Shown one piece after another: positions 43,745-62,016 of a DNA stretch of 64,000 nt (position 1 is its first letter; each line of letters begins with the position of its first letter). The position numbers and the translations under genes were made by a program. The notes under the pieces were generated by a model. The model was not told the origin of the DNA and ran no database searches. It saw nothing but the letters and a program-made list of their open reading frames with translations. The DNA comes from Aquanectria penicillioides (lineage: Eukaryota; Ascomycota; Sordariomycetes; Hypocreales; Nectriaceae), in assembly GCA_003415625.1 (NCBI GenBank), contig PYIU01000006.1, forward strand, positions 3,472,001-3,536,000. Reading direction: 5' to 3'.

Positions 43745-46200
43745 ATGCAGTCAACCATGGAAATAGATAATCCATGGGTGGATGCGCCCGTATCATTCAA
43801 CTCTAGTGGGGAAGTCCAGGAAGCATTCAAAGCTTGGGTCAAGACGAAATGGACCAAGCCAAACACTTATCATGCACGGCACTGGTTGCAATTGAATTAT
43901 CCTGCAATCACCGTAACGGAAAATTCCCTAGAGCTGGCGATTGACCAGGCTATAGAGGAGTCATTGGAACTTGCGAAAGCAAGGGAAAAGGTGCTGGCCC
44001 GAAATTTGCTCAACATTTTGCTTTTAGATGACAACTAACAAGCTTTGCCAACAATCCAGATATATAGCTCCCTCCAGGTACCTGGGTTCGGCCTTGCTTT
44101 GAATCACATGCCTCCTCCCAATCAGCGGTTTCCTGTGCTCCTCGGACTCGACGGCTGGGACTGGAAGGCAGCAACACTGCTCATCCGCGAAGTTTGCATG
44201 TTCAAAGTCATTGAAGAAATAACCAACAAGCCAGAGTGGTGGATCAAAGTCCACAATCCAGAGATTGCCGATAAGTGGAAGCAAGAGGCCTTGCATATGG
44301 ATTGGGAAGCATACCGCCCGCATGCCGACTTTACTCCCGCAATGGCCGAAGCAGTGAGTTCCGAGTTATCCTTCACCTTGGCGACACGCATTCAACTAAT
44401 ATCAACCAACTAGTGCATAAGTGAAGTCCGCAAAAAGGCTGACCTTTATGAGCAAACTGGTCTTATCCCCATCTTTGACTACTCATCCTGTGTTATAAAA
44501 TCCGACAGCCTTATCCCAGAAGATTTGCGTTCAACCCTTCGGGAAGCTGCCAGCTTACTCGAAGATGTTCCAGAAAAAGAAAAGGACTGGCATCCCGGCA
44601 CAACTCGCAAGGTTCTCAACTTAGTGCACCCCTCCATGTGGCCTTTTGTCTATGGGAGCAGCCGCGTACTGCTTAACAAGAGAATCGGTGTCTCGGATGC
44701 CCTTCAATACTGCGGCACGGGGGTGGTAAGCCCCAAGCCTCAGCCAATTGAGCTCGCATATTCTGGTGACAACTATCTCGGCCATCTTACGGATACTATT
44801 CCTTCTCTGTCGCCCAAATTTCAGTGGCTCCCCTGCGATGTTGCACTCGACGGTCCAACTGCTAAAGTCGATAGCTACATCAACAACTTGCACCCTATTG
44901 ATCACGCCCGTGTCTATCCTGTAATCGAGAGGTTTATTGAAAGAGCCTTGCCTGCCTGGGATATTATTTACCGCTGGCCCAAGGAGTTTCAGACTCAACG
45001 TCTAACTACGAGGAGCGCTGTCATGACATGCTCTACTCAAGACATTTGTCGAGCAAGCTGGGACTGCCATCCTTGGAACCGCCCACTGGAAGAGGATGAG
45101 CAACCACGAGACCAAGATGAGCCATACCAACCAGGATACAAAGAGTCGGAGAGGGGCAAGCGTGATTGGGCATGGCTCAAAGCTACGCACGGCATCAGCC
45201 TCCCCGACCCTGAGCCAGACAGCAACGCTCTTCTCAGACTCTCAGCAACAGATGTTAAGTCTACGGGCTTCTTCAACGATGCCTCTCGCATCCAAGTCAT
45301 TGTCAAGATGGCAAACATCCACCTGACTCCAGAGAATCCAGATTTTACATATGAAGTCTCCAAAGAGTTGGTTGACTTTTGGAACGCAGATTACAAGACA
45401 CAAGGAGGAGAAGGTTCAGAGGGTTCTTCTTTTCACCCCGCGCCTTCCACCGGATCCCCTTCTCTTTCTGATGTATCAACCCCGGAGGTCGTCCGCTCTC
45501 AGTTACACAATCGGACTACCATAGTGTCATTGTTGGCAATGATGCCACAGAATATGAAGGGGGATCCTGGCACACTGAGGGCATGCTCAACGAGCGCATA
45601 TGTTCAACCGCACTTTTCTATTATGATTCGGAGAATGTCACAGATTGCAATTTGGATTTCCGAACTACATCCAACCGCGAGGATCTTTCTGTGGAACTCA
45701 ACTACAGCCAGAGTGTACATTACCCTATCGAGCGCACGTTCGCGATTCCCAATGTCAATCGTGACACCCTTCAGGATCTCGGTGGCGTTCGTACCACCAA
45801 TAGCGCGTCAACGGGAGAAAATGATACCCGAGCAGTCTTTTTCCCCAATCTCCTCCAACACCGTGTATCTCCATTTCGCCTAGCCGACCCTACGCGGCCG
45901 GGGCATCGAAAGATCCTAGCTCTCTTCCTTGTCGACCCAGCTGTGCCCGTTATCTCCACGGCCAATGTTCCCCCACAACAACAACACTGGTGGTATCGGG
46001 AGTCACGAGTCCAGGAGGGGCTATTGCAATACTTATCTCCCGAGTTGATGAGAATGGTAATTGATGACATGGATCAGTTCCCAATTGATGAGAAGGAGGC
46101 CAAGAAAATTCGCCTGGAGCTTATGGATGAGCGGTCGGTTCAGCAGGATAAGACAGAGGATAGGATTCGCTCGATTGACTGGAACTTCTGTGAGCATTAA
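43745..46200 (+). CDS. DUF4246 family protein with an internal frame change
   Basis: Exons 43745-43990, 44060-44353 and from 44414 read in frame with normal introns. The family start block is LQVPGFGLALNHMPP, followed by FKVIEEITNKPEW. The middle has HPSMWPFVYGSSR and FQWLPCDVAL, and then VKMANIHLTPENP. From about 45356 the family sequence shifts frame. It resumes at 45559 as GGSWHTEGMLNERICSTALFYYDSEN in another frame, continues to HRKILALFLVDPAVP and WWYRESRVQEGLLQ, and ends at 46200. Between them lie about 200 bases flanked by an 8-bp direct repeat. The conserved HxEG looks like a 2OG-oxygenase-like metal site, but the function of DUF4246 is unknown. The N-terminal ~80 residues ahead of the family start are unusual. 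Confidence 0.75.
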
Positions 46201-46508: not shown

Positions 46509-47422
46509 ATGGCAAACCCTGTCTCGTATTTCTTCTATGCTCCGACGTGGGATTGGCCCCCAGAAGGACCCATTCAGCTCGGAAATGTCTTGACGTCAAT
46601 CAAGAAGCCAGAGCTACCGTTATCTACAACGCCGCCGCCAACAGCTGAGGAAGTCTTCTCATCGGAGAAGACTGAGGTTGAATACTCCAACGAGAAGCTT
46701 AGAGAAGGGAGATTCTCCATATTGACCAAATTCCTAAGTGTCCTTGGTGTCGGTGTTGATGTCAGCGTCAACTGGAAGAATAGGTGCGTGCGTGTCACAT
46801 TTGTCCAGCAACATCACTAACTACATCTAGCAATGAAGAGTTATACAGCTTCAAGCAAGTAGAAACAAAACAATTCATCCCCAAGGATGAATATGTTCAA
46901 AAGTGCATTGAGACGCCGGCCGTGCGACGATATTTAGAGAGATCTCGCTATCGCAAGCCAGTCTACATCATCACTGGAATCAAGACTGTATATGGTGCGA
47001 GCGCTAAATCGACTAAGGTTCGATCTCACGGAGGCGATACATCAGTCGAGGTGGACGGCACCGTCTGGAGCGGCGGTACTGCACCCGTTAGTGTCGCACC
47101 TGGGGTCGGGGGTACGGTGGAGACAAAGAAAGGCACATCTTGGGAGGGGAGCAGTGATTTTGTCTTTGCCTTCCGGGTCCGCAAGGTCCGTGTCAATAAG
47201 AAGACTCAAGAGGCAGAAGATAACGACGACTATACCAAGGGCGCAATGCTAGGCGAGGACGGAAGTGAGGGGGTCCGGGAATATGTCCCAGTGATCTCAG
47301 TAGCATCCCAAGAAGAAGCAACGGCGGAAGAGGAAGGCTACGATGAGGAAGAGTTGATGGAAGGCGATGCTGCAGTAACATGCGCATTTCTAATTGATGA
47401 AGACTCTGAAGATGATTATTGA
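46509..47422 (+). CDS. Gasdermin-like pore-forming protein candidate
   Basis: Two exons (46509-46783 and 46831-47422) encode 288 aa. The protein has no signal peptide or membrane helix. Amphipathic alternating strands run through SILTKFLSVLGVGVDVSVNW, then KQVETKQFIP, KPVYIITGIKTVYGA and SDFVFAFRVRKVRV. A Gly/Ser/Thr-rich stretch between strands (about residues 165-205) could be a pore hairpin. Size and this order resemble fungal gasdermins, and the call rests on that resemblance plus the neighbouring subtilisin gene. The last ~45 residues are strongly acidic (EEATAEEEGYDEEELMEG) and about the length of the C-terminal tail removed when fungal gasdermins are activated. The gene converges on the protease gene, 133 bases away. 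If correct, it makes pores in the plasma membrane in regulated cell death. Alternative: an unrelated fungal protein. Confidence 0.5.
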
Positions 47423-47555
47423 TTGGATTTTATGATAGTTATCGCAAGAGCGCCCATGGCTGCGAATATCCTGATGCGTAATGAGATTGATGGTATACAG
47501 ATGTATTATTCGCGGAGATTTCATCACCGTAAGGGTATTAATATGAACCAACATC

Positions 47556-50500
47556 CTAACGCCTCAAAAGTTCCCCAATAGTCTCATCGATAAACGACTT
47601 GTCCTTTCCGAAGAGGTTGTCCTGAGACAGACTCAACGCAACATAATTGTAGCCATCTCGGTTTACAGATTGCTGGGTCTTTTCAGCAATTTTTAACAGA
47701 ACGTTCTTCATCTTTTCCTGACGCTTCAACATGTGTGCCTTATCCGGCAGATGAATTCTCGCATATTGCAAGAGAAATGCGGAAATGCCCACTACGATGG
47801 GTGTCGCGTATGAAGTGCCTGATTTGCATTGGACGCAATCCGGGTTGATATCCTTGTCGCAGAGTGACAATGGCCATGCTGACTGGACCGCCTCGCCAAT
47901 GGTGGCAATGTTGAGGTCATGGGCAAGGGCTGTCGGGCTGAACTTTGATCTATTTCCGTTCGAGTCTGTTGAGTGAACGCAGATAACATGGGGATCGCGT
48001 GCGGGATACGCTCGGTCCTGGTTTGCGCCGCTATTAGAAGCTGCTGCGAAGAGCAGAACACCCTTAGAATAAGCATAGAGAAGAGCATTTTCCAGCTCAG
48101 TGTAGCCGTCGATTTGGTTTGTCGGATATCCAAAAGACATGGAGAGGATGTCAACCTTCCAGTCATCAACAGCAGTCTTTATCGCCTGTGCCACTGGTTA
48201 GCCCTGTCTCGAAGTACATCCACACTATGATAACAGACATACCTCCGCAATGACATTGGGCGGAGATGGTTTCCCTTGGGCAATCTTCGCAATGTATAAT
48301 TCTGCGTCTGGGGCATAGTCTATCAATAGACTAGCCGTAAAGGTACCATGTCCATCATAGTCGTAAATTCTCTTCTTCTTCGCCGGATTAGTCCAGTTCC
48401 GCTTAAGCTTGATCTGTCCGGTATCAAGAGATTCGTGCGTCTCATCTGCCCCAGAGTCAAGGACTGCGATTTTGACAGGATTTTGAGGTGGGTCTGTTAT
48501 ATGAGGCTCGATATATTTTCTGAGGACCGCTTGATATTTTGCTCTCCAATTCAGATAATTCTCAAGTCTATATTCTAAGGTTAGAAGGCATGGTGCTTTA
48601 CCGGCTAGGCTAATATAGAGTACAAACAAGCAGGTTTTGTACTAATGGAAAGGATTTCAAACATACTCTATGCGTGAGTGGTTTTCAGAAGGCTTCTCAT
48701 CGTCGTAGAATTTGGCAGCCTCAAACTCGGAGTCAGAGGCCAAGGCATGTCCTTGTCCAGGACCAGGAGATGCGGCAACACCTGCCATTTTCTGGTTCCA
48801 GGTCGCTAATAAATGGTGATGTAGTGAATCTGGCATTCCGGGAAAATATTGGTGTTGGTATGGGGAAATTGCTTCCAATGAAGGCATGGGTGTCCCCGCA
48901 GACGGAGTACCTTCTGGGTGATTAGAAATGAATTGTCCCCAACTACCAAAGTCCACTTTCTCAGCAATAGTATCGAGTTCTTCAATAGTGATGAAGTTGA
49001 AGGCATCACACAACTCATCCTCTAGTGGCCGAACAACCTCCTCGTACATCCTAACTCTCAGTTCTTGATCATCAAGCTTTTGACCCTCCTCGTCTTGCCA
49101 AGTCCATGGATCAAGACATTTTTCAATTGCATAGTAGAATTGCGAATTTTGAGGAATTTCGCGTTTGTATTCCTTGAATATTGAGTCAACATCAAGCGAC
49201 CTTGTCGGGCTGTCCACCGCTTCTTGGAAGTCGATGTCGCGTTTCTTTGCCAGAACCTTTAACGGTGCTGCAAGGTAAAGCTCCATTAGGACCGCTGCAA
49301 GAGTGACCAATGTTGGAAATGGATGTTGATAATTGTCAGGGTCTATGTCGCTTGTGCACATATCATCGGGATCCATGTCATCTGGATCCATATCGTCTGG
49401 ATCTATGTCGTCTGGATCTATTTCATCTGGATCTATTTCGTCTAGCGCATCATCTGTGTAGACATTATCCGATCCGACACCACCTGAGTTGTGGTTTGAA
49501 GGTTGAGGCTTTCCCTCTTCCCGCCATTCTTTCCCACAGCTTTCACCGTCAGAAACTGTTTGGTCTGCTAGCTGAGTCTGGATAAAAGGGCGCAAAGGAA
49601 TGCTGGAGGACGATGTTTGGAAAAACAATATGTTTGACGCATCCCAGGTAGGTTGAAGCCACGGGGTATCATTTAGATGGAGGACCATGTAGCTTAACAG
49701 TACGGCGAGTATTCTTTTGGTCTTTGCCGTCAAAGAACGAGAGCTTTCTTGAATGAACTGCTTTAGTGAGACAGAGGCCTTTTTCTTATCAATGCGGAAT
49801 TGGCTCTGCTCGGACCGCAGCTTCAGCAGCTTGCCTCTTTCAACTTTCAACTCAAGTCGCTTTGAGGTTGTCTTCTGCATTTTCTGCAGCTGATCGCATA
49901 ACTTCTTAACCGGCATTGGGGTATAGCCCAGCTTCTTCTTCGGCTTTGCCGGCCGGGGATCATCGTCAACAACAAACCGAACAACACTATCTCTAACGGC
50001 GTGCACATGTGCCTCCTGCCAATCCTGGTGAGAGGAGAAGAACATATCAAAGTCATTGACATCGTCTTCTTCTTCGCCGAGATCCATTTTCCGGTATGTG
50101 CGGAGACAGAGTCTGACGTCAAGTTCATGTTTTGGGCAGCATTCACACTTGGTGCTGCGAGCGAGAGCCTTGAAAAGTGATTGCGCGGCACTCTGCACCC
50201 CATACGATGGCTCCGCCCTCCTCTCTTTAGGAAGGTTGTTTTCATCCAAATACCAGTCTGTGCCATCTTCGGGATATCTTGCCAAAACATCTTCATCCCA
50301 GACGTCGAAAAACTCCTCCAGCCGTTGCCCAACTCGCTGCGCAGAAGGCTGCTCGAGGGCTAAACAGAGCGCGGCGAAGTCAAATTTGGCATCGACGTTC
50401 CGGTTTCGCATGGCATCCCATCGTTTATTGAGTGCCTGCTGCCGTGGATAATCATTCCACGAGGTATTCGGCGTAATCTTGGGAGATATGAGTGACTCAA

Positions 50501-50759
50501 ACAATTCTAGGACTCGAATGATGAGCTCATTATCTGGGCCAACTACGGCTTTGATTCGGTGGAGGTGGCGAGAAACCAATGCACAGTGTGCTGGCAAGTA
50601 ACGAAGTAGCTTTTTTAGTTCTTTGCTGGTCTGGCGGCCTTTGAGTAGGATGGCAATCTGCAGGATGGAATTCGAAGTGGCCAATACCAAGTCCACGGCC
50701 CAGTTGTCCGAGCCGTCAGCAGACATTGGCGCCATACCGACCGGCTCTCTTGTGTTCAC
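47556..50759 (-). CDS. DUF7580-subtilisin (S8) fusion protease
   Basis: Three exons (50759-48667, 48609-48243, 48185-47556) give 1029 aa. The N-terminal ~600 residues fit the DUF7580 domain: LRYLPAHCALVSRHLHRI near the start, then KRILAVLLSYMVLHLNDTPW and PFPTLVTLAAVLMELYL. An aspartate-rich linker of five-residue repeats (IDPDD/MDPDD type) is encoded at 49363-49446. The C-terminal S8 domain has the catalytic Asp in IAVLDSGAD, His in YDYDGHGTF, oxyanion Asn in AAASNSGA and Ser in KSGTSYATP, so it should be active. There is no signal peptide, so it acts inside the cell. The fusion fits the HET-Q2-type proteases that cleave fungal gasdermins. The intron at 48666-48610 was chosen because it alone keeps the frame. 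Confidence 0.85.
49363..49446 (-). repeat. 15-bp minisatellite coding for an Asp-Pro repeat
   Basis: Five to six 15-base units (plus-strand form TCGTCTGGATCTATG with small variants) lie inside the protease gene. They encode IDPDD/MDPDD/IDPDE repeats between the DUF7580 core parts. Such tandem repeats can change copy number between strains and vary linker length. Confidence 0.8.
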
Positions 50760-51298
50760 CTCCGTCTAGGCAGCGTACCCCGCAAAGCGCGTAACTTGGT
50801 TCGATCCACGGTTCTTGTGAGTTACAATGATTGCCGTGGATGAGGTTTGAAGAGGCCTAGGCAGCCGTATCATGCAGTAGGCGTTCTCGCCCACTATACA
50901 ACTCACCAGGGCGCCAGGGCGATCATGCTTTTCAGCACAGCATCGCGGTCTCGGAACGGATTGTGGTTTCTCCCTCAGAACACAGAGCTGGGGAGGAGAT
51001 GCATGATGGAAGGCTTTGTCAGCTGTCTTGGGCGAATCGTGTCCAGTTGCTGGGGCTGGGCGTCAGCCGAGGCGGGGTCCGGACAAGGGCCATGGTGATT
51101 GTGCGTGGTTTACGGCTATTGGATACACAGAAAACACTTTCCAACTCCAGCCTCGAGATACACTCGTGAAAAGGACCGAAATCGAAGTAGAGGCTCAAGT
51201 TGGGTGTTTGTTAACTCCTCTTGGATATCCTACCGTCGAAACTCGGTTGCTTCAATTTGTAATCCTGGTCAACGATCCACTCACAGCCCGACACCTAG
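50760..51298. promoter_or_regulatory. Shared divergent promoter of the protease and annexin-like genes
   Basis: The 539-base gap lies between two outward-reading genes, the protease (start 50759) and the C2H2/annexin fusion (start 51299). A common promoter would couple their expression. No conserved motif was recognised. Confidence 0.45.
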
Positions 51299-54200
51299 AT
51301 GATGGATGATGACCAGAATCTTGTCGATTCGACTGACTTAGCTGACCAGGTCGACCAAGGCAACAAGGACAGCCCTCCTGATCAAGCAACTATAGCTGGT
51401 CTTGCCGGACTATGTCTCGGAGCTTTTCAACAATGTCTTGATCTATCGGCTTCACATCACCCACGCGACCTGGCATTAATCGAGGATCAGGTCGCAAGGT
51501 TCTCGATTTGGACATCCAGAATCGGTGTCTTTGCTCGGGGACGAGCTTCCATGGATCACCGCCTCCGAGAAGCAATAGATGTGCACGTTGCTGTCTGTAG
51601 CCTGTTGGAAGCCTTAATAGATAGCATTCAAGCATGTATGTATTTGCTCTTCATCTTAATTCAAACCCACAACTTCCTTGATCGAGTGCAGGAAACACAA
51701 CATTCAGCACTAGGCCCAGGTGAACAGTGGCTACTAGTTACAACCGCTAATGACGAGCAGGTTCATCTACCCTTGGAACATCGGGCAATTCTCATCAGCA
51801 TTCCGCCCAAAGCTCCCCAAGTATCCACAGCGATGATTTTGACTCGTCGGTGGTTTCTATGGCAAAAGAGATAGGTATGCTCTATCGGCTTACGAATACT
51901 ATTCGGAGAGCTAGTAAGGAGATCCAGAATCTCAAGGCAGCAAAGTCATACCAAATCAAGGACGACGACGGAAATGATGCTGAGCCACTTTTGCAATATT
52001 TATATGCCAACTACATCCGTGGGCGATTTCCTAGCATCGCGGACAATCTTCGGCAACGCCTTGCATTCTCAATGGTCTTGAGACGGAAGAGAGTCCTATA
52101 CAGGAGATCTCGCTACGGCACAAATCCTATCAGGGCCAATAAGGTCATCTCACAACCAAAGGTCGAGTTTCCCCAAGCGCAAAATCAAGTTTCTGATGCG
52201 CCAGAACTGCCAGAGGAGCTTGCAGAAGATGTTGGGGCTGCTGTCCCTACTCTGACAAAGAGCATTGTACAATCTCAGGCTGCTAGTGCAACCACATTAG
52301 CGGTCGAGGATTATAAAAACGCGTCAACGCCCTCTGTCATTTCAGCAACAAAAACGATTGCTCTAGGTAATGAGGAGGAACTCGTCTTCCCTCCTGCACC
52401 TAATGGTCGAGTGAAGCAGAGGTACAGAATACTAAAGAAACAACGCGAGCAGGAGCACAATGAACACGTAAAATCTATTCAGAAAACTTCGATTTCCCCA
52501 GCATCTCTCTCAGTGCCAGCTGACTCCTCTGTCCAGCTCCCGCCTGGCGGGGATGCCAGCATTCGGCAATCAGAACTCGACCAAAATCTGTCCGAAGCAA
52601 ATACAAGGCTTGCCACATCATTGAAGTTGGATTGGATTGAATGCAACAAGGCAATACCAGAAGTAATATGCCCCTATTGCTTATATGCCGTTCCTAGTCT
52701 GTCTGTAGCAGACGAAAAGAAATGGAAGTATGTGACCATTCCCTTCATAGACGTGGATCAAGCTTCTCGGTCCAATAATGATCAATTGAATGCTAATAGT
52801 CTGTATAGAGCCCATGTCATACAAGATCTAGACGCGTATGTGTGTCTGTTCGACGAATGTGACAGGCCCGAAGAACTCTTCGCTCACAGCAGCGGCTGGC
52901 TCCGCCATATGCGCGAGCATCTGTTGCGATGGCGCTGCAACTCAAAGTCTCACCGTCCACAGACCTTTCTCACTGAAAAGGACTACCTAAGTCACATGAG
53001 GGAAAGCCATCCGCGCTCTTTATCGGAGCCTCAGCTGCGTGTGCTTGCCGAGAGGAACGCCCGGCCGATTGTACCCATGTTCGAATTTTGCCCCATCTGC
53101 GGCACCGAAGAGGTTACTGATAACCTAGAAGGCCACATTGCGGGGCACTTAAGGCTTCTTGCGCTTAGATCTCTTCCGCCTCACGAGGAGGACGGATCAG
53201 AGAGCTCCGAGAATGGACAGGGCTCAGAAGGGGCCTCTAGACCGGCAAGCAGAAGCACCATCAAAATGGACCCTGAGAGACACATTAGACCGAAGTTTAC
53301 AGATTCTGGAGATGCTTTAAGCTCAAGTCAATTGGATATCAACCTATCCTCATCGAGTGTTTACGCGCCGTGGGGAGGGTACGAGAATTACATTGCTTCG
53401 TGTGCCGCTGGCTCTCTAGATCAACACCCGAAGATGGGTGTGAATCCAGCTGAGCATTTTCCCAGACTCGCTGCCATCCATAGGGAGGAAAATGAAGAAG
53501 ACGAGAGACGGTTTTTTTGGCACAACGATCCGTCGAGACAGTTTGTTGAAGATTTCCTGTTCGATGGGGTCCCGACAAAGGACCGCAGGCATTTCGAGTG
53601 GGGATTTGTCACTTGGTTGAATGACAGACCAGGTGAAGCCCTCCAAAACGACGCCCTTATCCGCGAAATGATTGCACATAAACCGAAGAATCAATTTCTG
53701 CAGGGTAGCCCACAAACTCAACCGAACACTGAAGTGGAATATGCCGATGATGCAATTCGCGGGGCACCTAGGCCTCTCCTTCCGCCTTATCGCGGCAGTT
53801 ATAGTGCTGAGGGGTCGATATCACCTCCACTTTCCCCATCGAATGATCCAAATAACGAATTGGAGCCTCCAGAAACTGCCTCGCCCCTTGATCATGACCA
53901 GGAAAAGCGGAGCAACAGGCGTATCCGTAGTGGGCATCGTGTGTTTTGGTACGATCCCGAGGACATTGCTACTCAATTAGCCAGGGCTATGAAAGGATCG
54001 GGCAGGATCACAAACGTAAAAGTATTTTCGCAAATCCTTCCTGGATTAACACATGAGCAAATAATGGAGCTGCGTATCGAGTACAAGAGGATCGTCAAAA
54101 CGGGACCAGAGCGGAAGGGTGTCAACGTTGCAAAGCACATTCGCGCGCGTCTCAAAGAGGAAGACCCTCTTCTTATGAAAGCATGTTATGCAACCGCTCT

Positions 54201-55157
54201 TGGTATGTGGGAGAGCGAAGCCTACTGGGCCAACCTTTGGTACCAGGGTGACAAGGACCGCCATGAGCTCCTCATTGAGTCGCTCATGGGTCGCACCAAT
54301 GAGGAGATCCGCGCCATCAAGGATTCCTTTTCAGATAAGAAGTACGATAACAGTCTCGTCAAGTATATTAGGACGGAGCTCCCGGAAGGAAAGTTCAAGA
54401 ACGCAATACTTTTTGTCCTCGAGGAGCAGCGCATGGAAGAGCACGATAAGGCCGGGCTTCCACTGGCGATCGATTACGCGCAGGTTGAAAATGACAACCA
54501 AGAGCTGCGAAAGATCATTAATTCAGAGAATGGTGGCGAAACAGCCATGTTAGATATCCTGTTGCAACGTAGCGACGCACACCTTCGGCAAGTACTAAAA
54601 CTCTACGAACAGGAGTTTAATTCAAACTTTGCGAGAGACGCGGTGAAGAAGTTCGACAATTTGGTGGTAAGCATCATTCCTATATTAGCATCTATATTAC
54701 TCTTGTTAGGCTACTCCTTCTATGACTACTACTTCATTGTTCTCTCATCTATCCTCTTCAATAACAGCTACCGCTAACATCCAGTAATCAGGGCGAAGTT
54801 CTTGCACATATTCTCAATGGCGTGATTAACCGCCCTGCACGTGGCGCTCTGTTGCTGCACTATGCAATGACATCACCAAGGACGGACGATCTACGCCGTG
54901 AGCTGTTCATATCACGGCTTGTTCGTTATCATTGGGACAGGAGCCATATGCAGGATGTCATCGACGCGTACTACGAGCGCTATGGAACGAGCCTCTTAGC
55001 AGAATTGGAAGATGCTGTGTCTGGGGATTGGGGCGTGTTTTGCATGGAACTTTGCGCTCCTCAGACTCGATACATGACTGAAGTTCCAGACCCCCACCCC
55101 GTTTTGCACCTTCCGCATCCAACTATCAAGACGATTAGGCTTAAACTAACCGCCTAG
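51299..55157 (+). CDS. C2H2 zinc-finger / annexin-like fusion protein
   Basis: Exons from 51299 to 55157 encode about 1230-1250 aa. A helical N-terminus (AGLAGLCLGAFQQCLDLS) matches fungal proteins of the C2H2/acuF-like group. FDSSVVSMAKEIGMLYRLTN, a basic region and C2H2-like fingers follow (HMREHLLRWRC, HMRESHP, FCPICGTEE..GHIAGHL). The C-terminal ~300 residues resemble annexin repeats: ATQLARAMKGSG, LLIESLMGRTNEEIRAIKDSF, TAMLDILLQRSDAHLRQVLKLY, GALLLHYAM and MQDVIDAYYERYGTSLLAELE. Acidic residues for calcium are only partly visible. Introns at 51640-51860 and about 54667-54786 are needed; the first region is uncertain. The product may bind membranes. Confidence 0.7.
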
Positions 55158-56252
55158 AGGAGCCTGCAGACATTTAAGTCGGGGCCTACCAACACTAAAC
55201 TCCCTAGATGTTGAAGTTGGAATGTGACCCTTGCTCAAAGAGGTTTTGATTGCCTTTAATTGATACTGAAAACATTAGAAACTATTGTTATCACCTCATA
55301 ATGATCGGGTAGGATTACCTGGTTGCCTGGAACTCAAGCTGAAAGCGACCATGACCCGACCATGGCAACTACAGCAATCGGGTTACAAGCACAAGTCTCT
55401 CTATCTCCTGAAAAATGAATATAGTGACAGACATTGTCTGACGCCATGGTCCTTGAGAACTTTCAGTCCTTGTGTACTTTATCGATCGGCGTAGCCCGCC
55501 ATGTTGCATCTAAGACCACCCGAGGCAACAGCATTTTTAGGATTAGATTTCTAGATATAATGCGGTTTCAGACGCCCTCTCGAGGCTTAAGAAGAAAATC
55601 AATTCCGAATTGAATGCCAAGTTGCTAAATAGAACAAACATTGCCAGAAGAATAGATACCACTTCAATATACAGTCAACCAGGTCTATAACGATTTAGCG
55701 TTATAGCGATTTCTCCACTTTTAATCACCGTCAAGTATCTTTTAGCAAAATTGTCATATGTTAGTATCGAAATGGTACTTGAGAGTCTACACCGATACAT
55801 TCTGAGAATTGATTTGCTGATGTAATACATATTAAATCCCACAAATAGTCACGTGAAATTAAGCGAAGTCACGTGTGCTCTTATCATCTTAGCAATTGTA
55901 GGATTATTTCCCCATTAGGCTTATCGTATAACGAAAACCTCTTTATACCGATGCATACCTCTGTACCGCCACTATCGTTATAGACCTGCTTGACTGTATA
56001 GCGAATCAACAAAAGTCTCCGAAGATGATGCTACCAAGCAGCCAAGGCCCACTTTTCATTTCCCAAAACACGCCAAATGAGCCGATGTTTTGATCTAGTT
56101 ACTCACTACACAATCAAGAACCATCGAAGCTCCACTGCCTCAGTACACTAGACCCAAGCATCACAATGGGTGATGAATCTAAACTCGAGTTTATGAGATA
56201 TGCGAGAAGGTAGCCCCTCCGGACCTTGTTGAGCCCATAGTAACTTGAGCAG
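55158..56252. other. Intergenic region containing a MITE
   Basis: About 1.1 kb between the annexin-like gene and the acetyltransferase gene. Apart from the MITE (55672-55996) I see no gene. An ATG at 56164 begins a short frame that could be part of an unresolved first exon of the acetyltransferase. Confidence 0.5.
55672..55996. mobile_element. MITE of Fot1/pogo type (325 bp) with TA target sites
   Basis: The left end CAGTCAACCAGGTCTATAACGA (from 55672) is repeated inverted at the right end (TCGTTATAGACCTGCTTGACTG, to 55996) with one mismatch. TA dinucleotides flank both ends (55670-55671 and 55997-55998). The element has no coding capacity. Sub-terminal ATAACGA and TATAGCG repeats are present, as in fungal pogo/Fot MITEs. 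It carries two copies of AGTCACGTG at 55847-55855 and 55867-55875. Confidence 0.82.
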
Positions 56253-57658
56253 GCCCAAATGAGCAACGCACCATCTGTCGCGAAGATCTCGGCTTCTACC
56301 ATGCCGTCATCATTGGAGCCATTTATGATTTCGAGGGTGGAACTGCCGTTGACTCCCCTGAAACTTTCTTCCGTCCTCTGAGAGGGTGCATCGAGCAACA
56401 TCCTTTCCTCTGTGTTGTGGTTGGTGACATGCACACTGATAAAGCATTTTATCAACGAGTATCTGCGATCAACTTGGAAGATCACATATCCATTCTTGAT
56501 GTGTTCGTGGGCGATGATGCTCAGAACAGCGCCATCGAAAAAGTATTAGAGTCGAATATCGACCGCGAGTTCCGCTCTGGTATCCCACCATGGAGAATCA
56601 CAGTCCTCCCGTCGATTTCCTCCCGGTGCTACATCTCATTCGAATACTCTCACATGATTGGAGACGGACCAACCGGATTGGCATTCCACCAGACATTTCT
56701 GCAAACTTTCAACGCTGCATCGTCGACCAGCCCCGTATCAGCGATTGTCCAGACACCTGTTGCGCCTTTACCAGCTCCGTTTGATACTCCCCAAAGGCTC
56801 CCCATTTCTTGGTCCTATCTGTTCGCGCCGCTTTTTGCGCTTCTTATGCCCCAGTTCATCGCAACTAAGCTTGGATTCCAAATTTCGGCGTCTTCAATCG
56901 ATGCTGGCACTTGGACTGCTACCAACATGTCTTTTGACCCCAACACAACCAAAACCAAAGTCAGAGTCTATGAAATTGAGCAGCATCTTCTTGACAAGGC
57001 CATTCGCGTTTCAAGGCAACACGATTCGAAACTAACAGGCACAATCCATGTGTTGCTTACTCGAGCATTGAGTAAGGTCATTGTTGACCCTTCCATCACC
57101 AACTTTGTCTCCCAAACAGCAGTCAACATGCGAGGCTCTATTGGTGCGCCCAAGGACGAGATGGGAGAGTATGCTTCGGTCTGTTATCTTTCACATCCGC
57201 GTTCTAGCTCGTCACAGCCCTTCTCGGTGGAGGAATGGGAGGCTGCCAGTGGGGACACTAAAAAGCTCGAGACGTGTGCCTCAACTCTCCAGGATCAACC
57301 TATCGGACTGCTCCGATTCCTGCCCAGCATCCGAAAATGGACTCTTGGAAAGCTCGGGCAGCGGCGAGACTGCTCCTATGAGATGAGCAATGTCGGTTTA
57401 TTTGACCCCGTGGGAAACAATAGTGATGGACCCGTCAAAATCACCAAGGTGGTCTTTACGCAGCCCGGTCACGTTACCAGTGCTCCGATTGCATTCAACT
57501 TTGCGAGCCTCAAGGGAGGAAGTCTTCTATATACAATTAGCTGGCATGGAGGAGCGTTGGGTGTTGGAAACGACGAGGACCGTATTGTGGATGAAATGGC
57601 TTCGTCCATACGAGCTGGTTTTGAAGCATTGGGGTTGAATAGTGGTGCATCGAATTGA
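56253..57658 (+). CDS. Alcohol acetyltransferase-like (AATase) enzyme
   Basis: The frame is open from 56253 to the stop at 57658. It reads PNEQRTICREDLGFYHAVIIG, FFRPLRGCIEQHPFLC and WRITVLPSIS, followed by EYSHMIGDGPTG, whose HxxxD is the acyltransferase catalytic motif. The C-terminal part has QTAVNMRGSIGAPKDEMGEY, the ARSG-like region and VGLFDPVGN. This is the pattern of fungal AATase/condensation-like acyltransferases that acetylate alcohols or amines with acetyl-CoA. The 5' part is not clear: the open frame begins next to a splice acceptor (GAGCAG at 56247-56252), and no ATG exon joins cleanly in phase. A start near 56164 with an intron is possible. The MITE upstream may influence expression. 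Confidence 0.75.
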
Positions 57659-60558: not shown

Positions 60559-62016
60559 ATGTCTGTGCCGCAGAGATCAGCCCCTAGCTCCGAAGAGCTG
60601 CAGCAATTTTATGTTGGAAAGCTCGTGTCTGAGGTCCCGAAACCCGCGGTCATCATCGATGTAGCAAAAGTCACGCGACACTGCGCTTCCATGCTTGAGG
60701 TCGCCGAGGCTCTTGGCGTTGGCTTTCGGCCACATGTCAAAACCCACAAGGTTAGTTTGTTTGTTTTCTCCGCTCAAGGTATCCGTAAATCCAGATCTTT
60801 GACCCTTGAGCGCTAGACTATTGAAGGGACTCGCTTGCAGGTTGGCTCGGGCACAACCGATGTCAACATAGTCGCCTCAACACTGGCGGAAATTGAACAC
60901 TTGCTGCCACTGCTGCATGAATACAACAAAAATTCTCGGCCCATCAATGTGCTGTACGGAATTCCGCTTCCGCCCTCCCAGGCGTCAAGGCTAGCACACC
61001 TTGGTCGCCAGTTGGGAGAGAACAGCATCTCCGTGCTGGTTGACCATTCGTCGCAACTCAAGGCAGTAAGCGAGTTCTTTAGAATCACCGGTTTTCCAGT
61101 TCAGGTGTTTTTGAAAGTAGACACTGGGTATCATCGAGCCGGTCTTCCTCCGACAAAAGCAAATAAAAATGGTCTCCTGGAAACCATCATCGCGCTGGAG
61201 AAAAGCGGAGAGGCTAGACTTCTTGGCTTATATGCTCATAGCAGCTTGAGCTACAGCAACAAGACTGCTGAAGAGGCCATGGCAAGTCTTCAAGGAGAAA
61301 TCCAAGGTTGCCTGGACACTTTGCGCTTGAATGCACATCTCATTCCCGACAACAAAGAACTTGCCATCAGCGTCGGTGCATCGCCACAGGTGACCTCCAT
61401 TGAGAATTTGACGCGTGGTGACGGACACAAGTCCTATACCGCATTTTCACTCAGAAGAACTCTCAAAGAAGTCATGGATGGAAGTCCGAGCGGCTTTAAA
61501 ACGAAGCTTGAGCTCCACGCGGGAGTCTACTCCCTTCTCGACATGCAGCAACTGTCCACCAACTCTCGAGTCCATCTTGGCAACTACGAAGACGAAATCG
61601 GCATATCAGTGATTTCAGAGGTGTGCAGTGTTTATAATGACGGAGAACGCGCGCAGCCCGAGGCACTCCTGGCAGTGGGAGCGCTTGGTCTGGGTCGTGA
61701 ACCGTGTCCATCCTACAGTGGCTGGGGAGTGGTTCAGCGAACGTCATATGTCGCCGGCGATGAATCAAGAGGACGTTTGATTGTTTCCAGGATTAGCCAA
61801 GAGCACTCCATTATTGCTTGGGAGACTGATGCCTCGTCAGGGGAATCGGTGACACCCCAGCCGGTACCTCTTGAGGTTGGACAAACAGTCCTTATTTACC
61901 CCAACCATGCTTGCATCACCGGCGCTCTATATGGATGGTACCTCGTAGTTGACTCTTCAGACTCATCAAAAGGATCAAAGATTATTGATGTGTGGGTTAG
62001 GGCGAGTGGATGGTAG
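60559..62016 (+). CDS. D-serine dehydratase / D-threonine aldolase-like PLP enzyme
   Basis: Two exons (60559-60750 and 60817-62016) give 463 aa. The N-terminal domain has PKPAVIIDVAKV and GFRPHVKTHK, where the lysine carries PLP in the alanine-racemase-like TIM barrel. VFLKVDTGYHRAGLPP and LYAHSSLSYS follow. The C-terminal D-serine dehydratase-like domain has ALLAVGALGLGREP and YPNHACITG, whose His and Cys are the zinc ligands of eukaryotic DSD1-type enzymes. All expected catalytic parts are present. The enzyme should deaminate D-serine or cleave D-beta-hydroxy amino acids in the cytosol. It starts at the first ATG after a CT-rich promoter. Confidence 0.9.

Follow-up and report, generated by a model that had tools for sequence, protein, structure and literature searches.

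A gasdermin, a DUF7580-subtilisin protease and a C2H2-annexin protein as a probable three-gene cell-death cassette in the fungus Aquanectria penicillioides

A stretch of 64,000 nucleotides from the fungus Aquanectria penicillioides (Nectriaceae; GenBank assembly GCA_003415625.1, contig PYIU01000006.1, positions 3,472,001 to 3,536,000), here called the window, carries three neighbouring genes that encode a fungal gasdermin, a convergently transcribed protease combining a DUF7580 region with a peptidase S8 (subtilisin-type) domain, and a divergently transcribed C2H2 zinc-finger protein ending in an annexin (Table 1). We consider it likely that the three form a cassette for regulated cell death, with a C2H2 protein as sensor, a kinase-like protease and the gasdermin as executioner, the domains at the C-terminus of the C2H2 protein serving as sensors or baits. 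The gasdermin and the DUF7580-S8 protease make up a pair of an already known kind, similar to HET-Q1/HET-Q2, and the new element is the third gene beside it. Within this genome the conserved third member is the C2H2 protein and not the annexin: C2H2 relatives accompany DUF7580 genes irrespective of the effector, and gasdermin accompanies S8. An earlier note on this DNA had proposed that the three genes are functionally linked, with the annexin gene as an addition for membrane binding or repair after pore formation. The link is supported because C2H2 relatives adjoin other DUF7580 genes in the same genome, but the reason is this pairing and not membrane repair by an annexin, which is only the C-terminal extension of the protein and is replaced by other extensions in C2H2 relatives at the same place.

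That the 288-residue protein is a fungal gasdermin (fGSDM), as had been suggested by its texture, is strongly supported by sequence comparison and by the pore-domain fold predicted for a homologue. In a phmmer search against PDB it matched Neurospora RCD-1-1 (E=1.9e-8) and RCD-1-2 (E=1.1e-6), and a family profile built from 53 homologues (229 found, 120 listed) matched RCD-1 (E=8e-16), the HET-Q1 pores (9uv9, E=1.7e-8) and bacterial gasdermins (about 1e-3). For the fold, a Clonostachys homologue (P0001) that is 69% identical stood in for the window protein; its AlphaFold model (mean pLDDT 67.7, pTM 0.66) had RCD-1 chains in the first 14 places of a Foldseek search (best E 5.7e-7) and bacterial gasdermins after them. 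The fit is loose, with root-mean-square deviations of 7-18 Å and TM-scores of 0.27-0.54 when the maltose-binding-protein fusion chains are left aside; RCD-1 is the nearest structure, and a fold unrelated to gasdermins is not what the model indicates. The assignment made from texture holds because the PDB matches, the family profile and the predicted fold of the homologue agree. The proposed search against gasdermin families was borne out by the profile of the family itself and not by the public libraries, since neither Pfam nor NCBIfam gave a passing match: no Pfam model recognised the window gasdermin or the four homologues scanned, and the NCBIfam model prok_gasdermin stayed far under its cut-off (E=0.0039). 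The precomputed label PF26164 on three gasdermin homologues did not come up again when they were rescanned.

The neighbouring protease agrees with its earlier description as a convergent DUF7580-S8 protein with an intact triad and without a signal peptide. It matches the Pfam families DUF7580 (E=4e-39) and Peptidase_S8 (E=1e-28), the catalytic motifs are intact by reading (Asp in VLDSGAD, His in DGHGTFTA, Asn in AASNSG and Ser in SGTSYATP), and nothing resembling a signal peptide was seen by eye at the N-terminus. The DUF7580 region is, provisionally, assigned a probable kinase-like fold; subtilisins dominate the PDB matches of the DUF7580 profile because the alignment rows included the S8 domain. 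Within this region lies an Asp-rich coding tandem repeat (units of about DPDD/EI/M, window positions 49340-49460, minus strand), in or beside a low-confidence insertion of the DUF7580 model, which could differ in length among strains.

The neighbourhood of pore protein and protease appears to be kept across genomes, as the proposal of the earlier note requires. When the 120 listed gasdermin homologues (of 229 found) were compared with 41 DUF7580-S8 homologues, counting as linked those from the same species and an equally long contig, a criterion applied to hit lists and not to the loci themselves, 21 of the 41 proteases had a gasdermin partner among the matches listed. The linked cases are in Clonostachys rosea, Clonostachys chloroleuca, Neonectria punicea, Neonectria ditissima, Diaporthe, Lepidopterella, Purpureocillium, Hypoxylon (three), Cudoniella, Daldinia (two), Hypomontagnella, Scytalidium, Biscogniauxia, Monosporascus, Trichoderma, Penicillium and Xylaria (two), and in seven of them the locus numbers are consecutive (Neonectria punicea, N. 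ditissima, Purpureocillium, Hypoxylon texense, Cudoniella, Scytalidium and Monosporascus). No linked gasdermin was present for the other 20 proteases among the matches listed, with 109 gasdermin homologues unlisted, and for instance in Trichoderma barbatum, Biscogniauxia mediterranea and Cylindrodendrum hubeiense the gasdermin and the protease are on contigs of unequal size.

Our survey of the neighbourhoods covered one genome, that of A. penicillioides itself (53.8 Mb, 13 contigs), in which the gasdermin search gave 12 loci, nine at E<=1e-3 and three weaker. A protease gene lies within 5 kb of eight of the 12 (S8 in seven cases, CHAT in one), and an additional weak gasdermin on C8, found by looking beside a protease, has a profile match at E=2.9e-7 and none in the PDB and brings the total to nine of 13; the published share of fungal gasdermins with a protease neighbour is about 80% (PMC10197012). 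At C11:92528-96565 a weak gasdermin-like protein, a gasdermin candidate without a PDB match, lies 2.8 kb from a gene for a CHAT caspase-like protease, and gasdermin with CHAT protease is the other published pair type. For the clear gasdermin relative at C1:8148853, neither S8 nor CHAT was matched within 70 kb. Like the HET-Q1/HET-Q2 and HET-Q2-like (Q2L) pairs, the window has a short-tailed gasdermin adjoining a multidomain S8 protease; unlike them, its protease carries DUF7580 and a third, C2H2 gene is attached. Moreover, het-Q1 and het-Q2 of Podospora are alternative genes at one locus, whereas the window genes stand side by side.

The acidic tail of 45 residues that had been noticed at the C-terminus of the gasdermin is real, with a net charge of -17. 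The net charge of residues 1-217 is +6 and that of residues 218-288 is -24, and at the border of the two sits the hinge motif Y-x-K-G-A-M-L, in which G229 and A230 are invariant in 54 of 54 aligned sequences and Y226 is kept in 50. The short piece after the pore domain (residues 233-288) lies outside the stretch aligned to RCD-1 and HET-Q1, and the solved HET-Q1 chain of 232 residues could be aligned to its residue 227, the beginning of the hinge motif. HET-Q1 sheds about 5 kDa with a probable cut at F238, according to a recent review (PMC12881547), and the window gasdermin has a 56-residue tail past the hinge at the equivalent site. Because of the charge border, the invariant motif, the end of the HET-Q1 chain and its loss of about 5 kDa, we infer that cleavage would take place in or just past the YxKGAML hinge and release a tail of about 45-56 residues. 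The proposed module of a gasdermin and a tail-cutting subtilisin finds strong support in sequence, in the predicted fold of the homologue and in the cross-species linkage, the cleavage itself being a prediction. The likeness to Neurospora RCD-1 extends to sequence and to the predicted fold of the homologue; however, killing by RCD-1 is set off by the meeting of two allelic forms (PMC12881547), while the window gasdermin has an acidic tail and a protease.

The third gene is a genuine fusion, as had been claimed, since a single uninterrupted frame of 1007 codons holds the C2H2 part together with the larger share of the annexin; the product matches Pfam Annexin with 64.9 bits (cut-off 25) in four annexin stretches. 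Two alternative gene models exist for the intron between exons 1 and 2 (51636-51760 in the model of Table 1), and this intron is provisional. The annexin as a conserved third partner had to be given up: the 120 listed annexin homologues (of 811 found) have no recognisable C2H2 part, and the other annexin loci of this genome lie away from its gasdermins. Residues 1-820 of the fusion gave a single chance-level match (E=0.86) in a BLAST comparison with 343 retrieved proteins. C2H2 proteins of this type go by the name acuF.

The DUF7580 search gave 15 loci above the cut-off (one further locus below it was excluded from the counts), and seven of these have an S8 domain within 1.1 kb. Gasdermins lie within 4 kb of six of the seven DUF7580-S8 genes and of none of the eight DUF7580 genes without S8, the latter figure resting mainly on the genome-wide gasdermin search, as the flanks of those eight were read in part. 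With the C2H2 part of the window gene as query, 12 loci were found, of which 11, the window locus among them, have a DUF7580 gene no more than 5 kb away, and a second query, from another member, added two loci, both away from DUF7580, after four places matching only the end of the query past the zinc fingers had been dropped; the blind total is thus 11 of 14. A targeted look at the sole DUF7580-S8 gene lacking a partner found a C2H2 gene there as well, which brings the pairs to 12, out of 15 loci on the C2H2 side and 15 on the DUF7580 side, and all seven DUF7580-S8 genes have a C2H2 relative within 5 kb. The pairs are divergent in 11 of 12 cases (one, on C2, with a gasdermin between), and in the pair on C8 the two genes are in tandem with the gasdermin between them. 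When 15 genes were placed at random in 20,000 throws, 0.05 on average and never more than 3 fell within 5 kb, against the 12 of 15 observed; since the pairs may share one ancestor, the pairing should be taken as a stable unit and not as twelve separate events. In addition, two of the eight DUF7580 genes without S8 are fused to PNP_UDP_1 in the place of S8 (C3:1684091-1687800 and C12:3233200-3236304), each divergent from a C2H2 gene and with no gasdermin found; these loci are sister cassettes with a different effector.

The C-termini of the 12 paired C2H2 genes are exchanged for one another in this genome. Besides the annexin in the window they comprise WH_RGF3-RhoGEF-CNH, HBS1_N-BAG with a weak ubiquitin match, RasGEF_N-RasGEF, EF-hands, Pkinase (two genes), the NACHT-type domain NPHP3_N, and NACHT_N with a weak PNP_UDP match, while three genes had no Pfam match above the cut-off; several genes were read only to the fetched end, and more domains may lie beyond it. 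The C2H2 part and the C-terminal domain share one open frame in four genes (annexin, RhoGEF, one kinase and NPHP3_N); the other fusions are drawn across introns, and in the EF-hand gene the first EF-hand segment is at the end of the preceding frame. The kinase at C1:7793 looks like a pseudokinase, because by reading HLN and DFQ replace HRD and DFG.

Several of these domains have a second copy in the genome. WH_RGF3, BAG and the EF-hand protein each occur at two places, only one of which is a C2H2 gene, and RasGEF_N occurs at five; the identity between the fused and the other copy is 69% for the annexin, about 50% for RhoGEF, 48% for BAG and 73% for the EF-hand protein. In all four comparisons third codon positions are the most divergent (for the annexin 0.23, 0.15 and 0.57 at positions 1, 2 and 3), and the fused copies are therefore maintained coding sequences. 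The ordinary annexin, ANXC4, is 87-89% identical to those of three other Nectriaceae and groups with Dactylonectria and Ilyonectria (support 95/83) in a tree of 56 rows, in which the end branches are 0.98 for the fused copy, 0.10 for ordinary ANXC4 and 1.06 for a third copy, with a median of 0.044. Thus, the fused annexin evolves about ten times faster than ordinary ANXC4. Because the fused copy is long-branched and has no supported position in the tree, the tree does not show that the fused annexin arose recently from ANXC4 of the same genome. The third ANXC4-type copy (C6:6705721-6706273) has interrupted frames and is apparently broken; it and the C2H2-annexin fusion have a linker in common (38% over 89 amino acids), no C2H2 part was present in the 3.1 kb examined upstream, and it is perhaps the leftover of a second fusion. 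A fast-changing but intact copy of a conserved protein within an immune-type gene would look like an integrated decoy, although relaxed constraint would look alike.

Three other explanations were weighed against the three-gene cassette. If only a two-gene cassette of the HET-Q1/HET-Q2 kind were present, the C2H2-annexin gene would be an unrelated neighbour, in keeping with the published unit, which is the gasdermin-protease pair (PMC10197012), and with Neonectria ditissima, the only relative with comparable locus numbers, where about 330 locus numbers separate the best ANXC4 homologue (g7376) from the pair (g7709 and g7710), so that the annexin is not found beside the pair in that relative. 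We regard this as improbable, as C2H2 relatives adjoin 12 of 15 DUF7580 genes of this genome, including all seven with S8. The C2H2 protein could instead serve solely to regulate transcription of the divergent cassette, its C-terminal domains merely tuning stability or location; the zinc fingers, recognised by reading, and the 563-bp divergent intergenic region common to both genes would fit such a role, but NACHT, RhoGEF, RasGEF and BAG C-termini are of the signalling or NLR (NOD-like receptor) type and unusual in promoter-bound regulators, and the same C2H2 family accompanies the DUF7580-PNP_UDP genes, which leaves this role rather unlikely.

Quite improbable, in our opinion, is that the annexin part works as an annexin that recruits the complex to membranes or repairs them after pore formation. 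It does have four annexin stretches and the codon-position pattern of a maintained frame; however, relatives at the same position bear unrelated domains, the ANXC4 annexin of Neonectria ditissima lies far from the pair, and the roughly tenfold faster evolution speaks against such a role. The classical type II calcium loop of annexins is GxGT, and none was seen by reading in either the fused or the ordinary ANXC4 copy, which may also speak against a working annexin.

In the three-gene cassette that we favour, the short acidic tail would keep the gasdermin inactive, and the DUF7580-S8 protein, a putative helical bundle with a degenerate kinase-like domain and a cytosolic subtilisin, would be the activating protease. 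Once switched on, it would cut in or just after the YxKGAML hinge, and the freed pore domain would puncture the membrane and kill the compartment. The divergently transcribed C2H2 protein may control the kinase-like part of the protease, with its exchangeable C-terminus, here the annexin, as the sensing surface, so that the wiring would run from C2H2-X to DUF7580 to the effector and, where the effector is S8, onward to the gasdermin. The protease proteins of the published two-gene unit are regarded as the sensors (PMC10197012); by analogy with plant NLR pairs, sensing may here have been split off to the divergent partner. In those sensor-helper pairs with integrated decoys (PMC12258605) the genes are likewise head-to-head and one partner bears exchangeable copied domains, but the window proteins have no nucleotide-binding domain, a zinc-finger protein and a kinase-like protease replace the two NLRs, and no pathogen effector is known. 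Since a Pfam scan found no NB-ARC or NACHT domain in the three window proteins, the module is not classed as an NLR and is only likened to NLRs in its working; NACHT-type domains, as in NLRs, are present in two sister C2H2 genes of the genome. The Sordariales NLRs described in the same source offer a parallel, in that the host kinase CHK-2 has been copied in as a likely decoy and C2H2 fingers occur in 34 NLRs; however, that study treats NLRs, calls head-to-head NLR pairs rare, and mentions neither gasdermin nor annexin in its main text (PMC12258605).

A wider reading, which we offer tentatively and hold to be possible but not probable, is a fungal sensor-transducer-executioner immunity outside classical NLRs. 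The C2H2 proteins would have taken up copies of conserved components of the cell (annexin ANXC4, Rho-GEF, Ras-GEF, BAG co-chaperone, EF-hand protein and kinase) to bait parasites, mycoviruses or rivals, and would release the divergent kinase-like effector; a protease effector would fire the gasdermin, and PNP_UDP would act on nucleotides. A literature search, which left most subscription papers outside reach, found nothing on DUF7580 and no description of a fungal gasdermin joined to a zinc-finger or C2H2 gene or of acuF-like fungal C2H2 proteins, and for fungal gasdermin with decoy or allorecognition it gave only a plant review. A later review mentions two- or three-gene clusters, and an arrangement of the window type is not described in its accessible text (PMC12881547). 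The other neighbours in the window are ordinary, namely a DUF4246 protein (44414-46197), an alcohol-acetyltransferase-like protein (56249-57655) and a D-serine-dehydratase-like protein (60817-62013).

Table 1. Features of the three-gene locus, in window positions
Feature	Position	Strand	Details
Fungal gasdermin, 288 aa	46509..47422	+	Exons 46509-46783 and 46831-47422; single 47-bp intron
Hinge motif YTKGAML, residues 226-232, joining pore domain and tail	47231..47251	+	Alignment; HET-Q1 pore chain ends equivalently
Acidic C-terminal tail, residues 233-288, putative inhibitory piece	47252..47419	+	Charge count
DUF7580-S8 protease, 1007 aa	47556..50735	-	Exons 50735-48667, 48567-48243 and 48185-47556; convergent with gasdermin gene
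Peptidase S8 domain, residues about 721-970, intact Asp-His-Ser triad	47670..48476	-	Pfam; family profile matches subtilisin structures
DUF7580 region, about residues 180-600	48936..50198	-	Probably kinase-like fold
Divergent intergenic region, protease to C2H2 gene, 563 bp	50736..51298	.	Exon coordinates
C2H2-annexin protein, 1202 aa (our model)	51299..55157	+	Exons 51299-51635, 51761-54666 and 54792-55157
C2H2 zinc-finger region, residues about 458-590	52795..53193	+	Common to partners of other DUF7580 genes; fingers by reading
Annexin part, fast-evolving ANXC4 duplicate	53899..55157	+	Pfam; intron position same as in ordinary copy

The stimuli that activate fungal cell-death sensors are named as a major open question in the recent review (PMC12881547). 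If the baits carried by the C2H2 partner are indeed copied host proteins, each copy tells what is being watched, and every cassette can be read as a testable hypothesis on the attackers of fungi, the cases being annexin and membranes, the exchange factors for Rho and Ras, and chaperones. Integrated-decoy pairs would then also seem to have arisen outside NLRs, with other kinds of partner. Even if the pairing alone holds, a third component is still added to the published two-gene unit.

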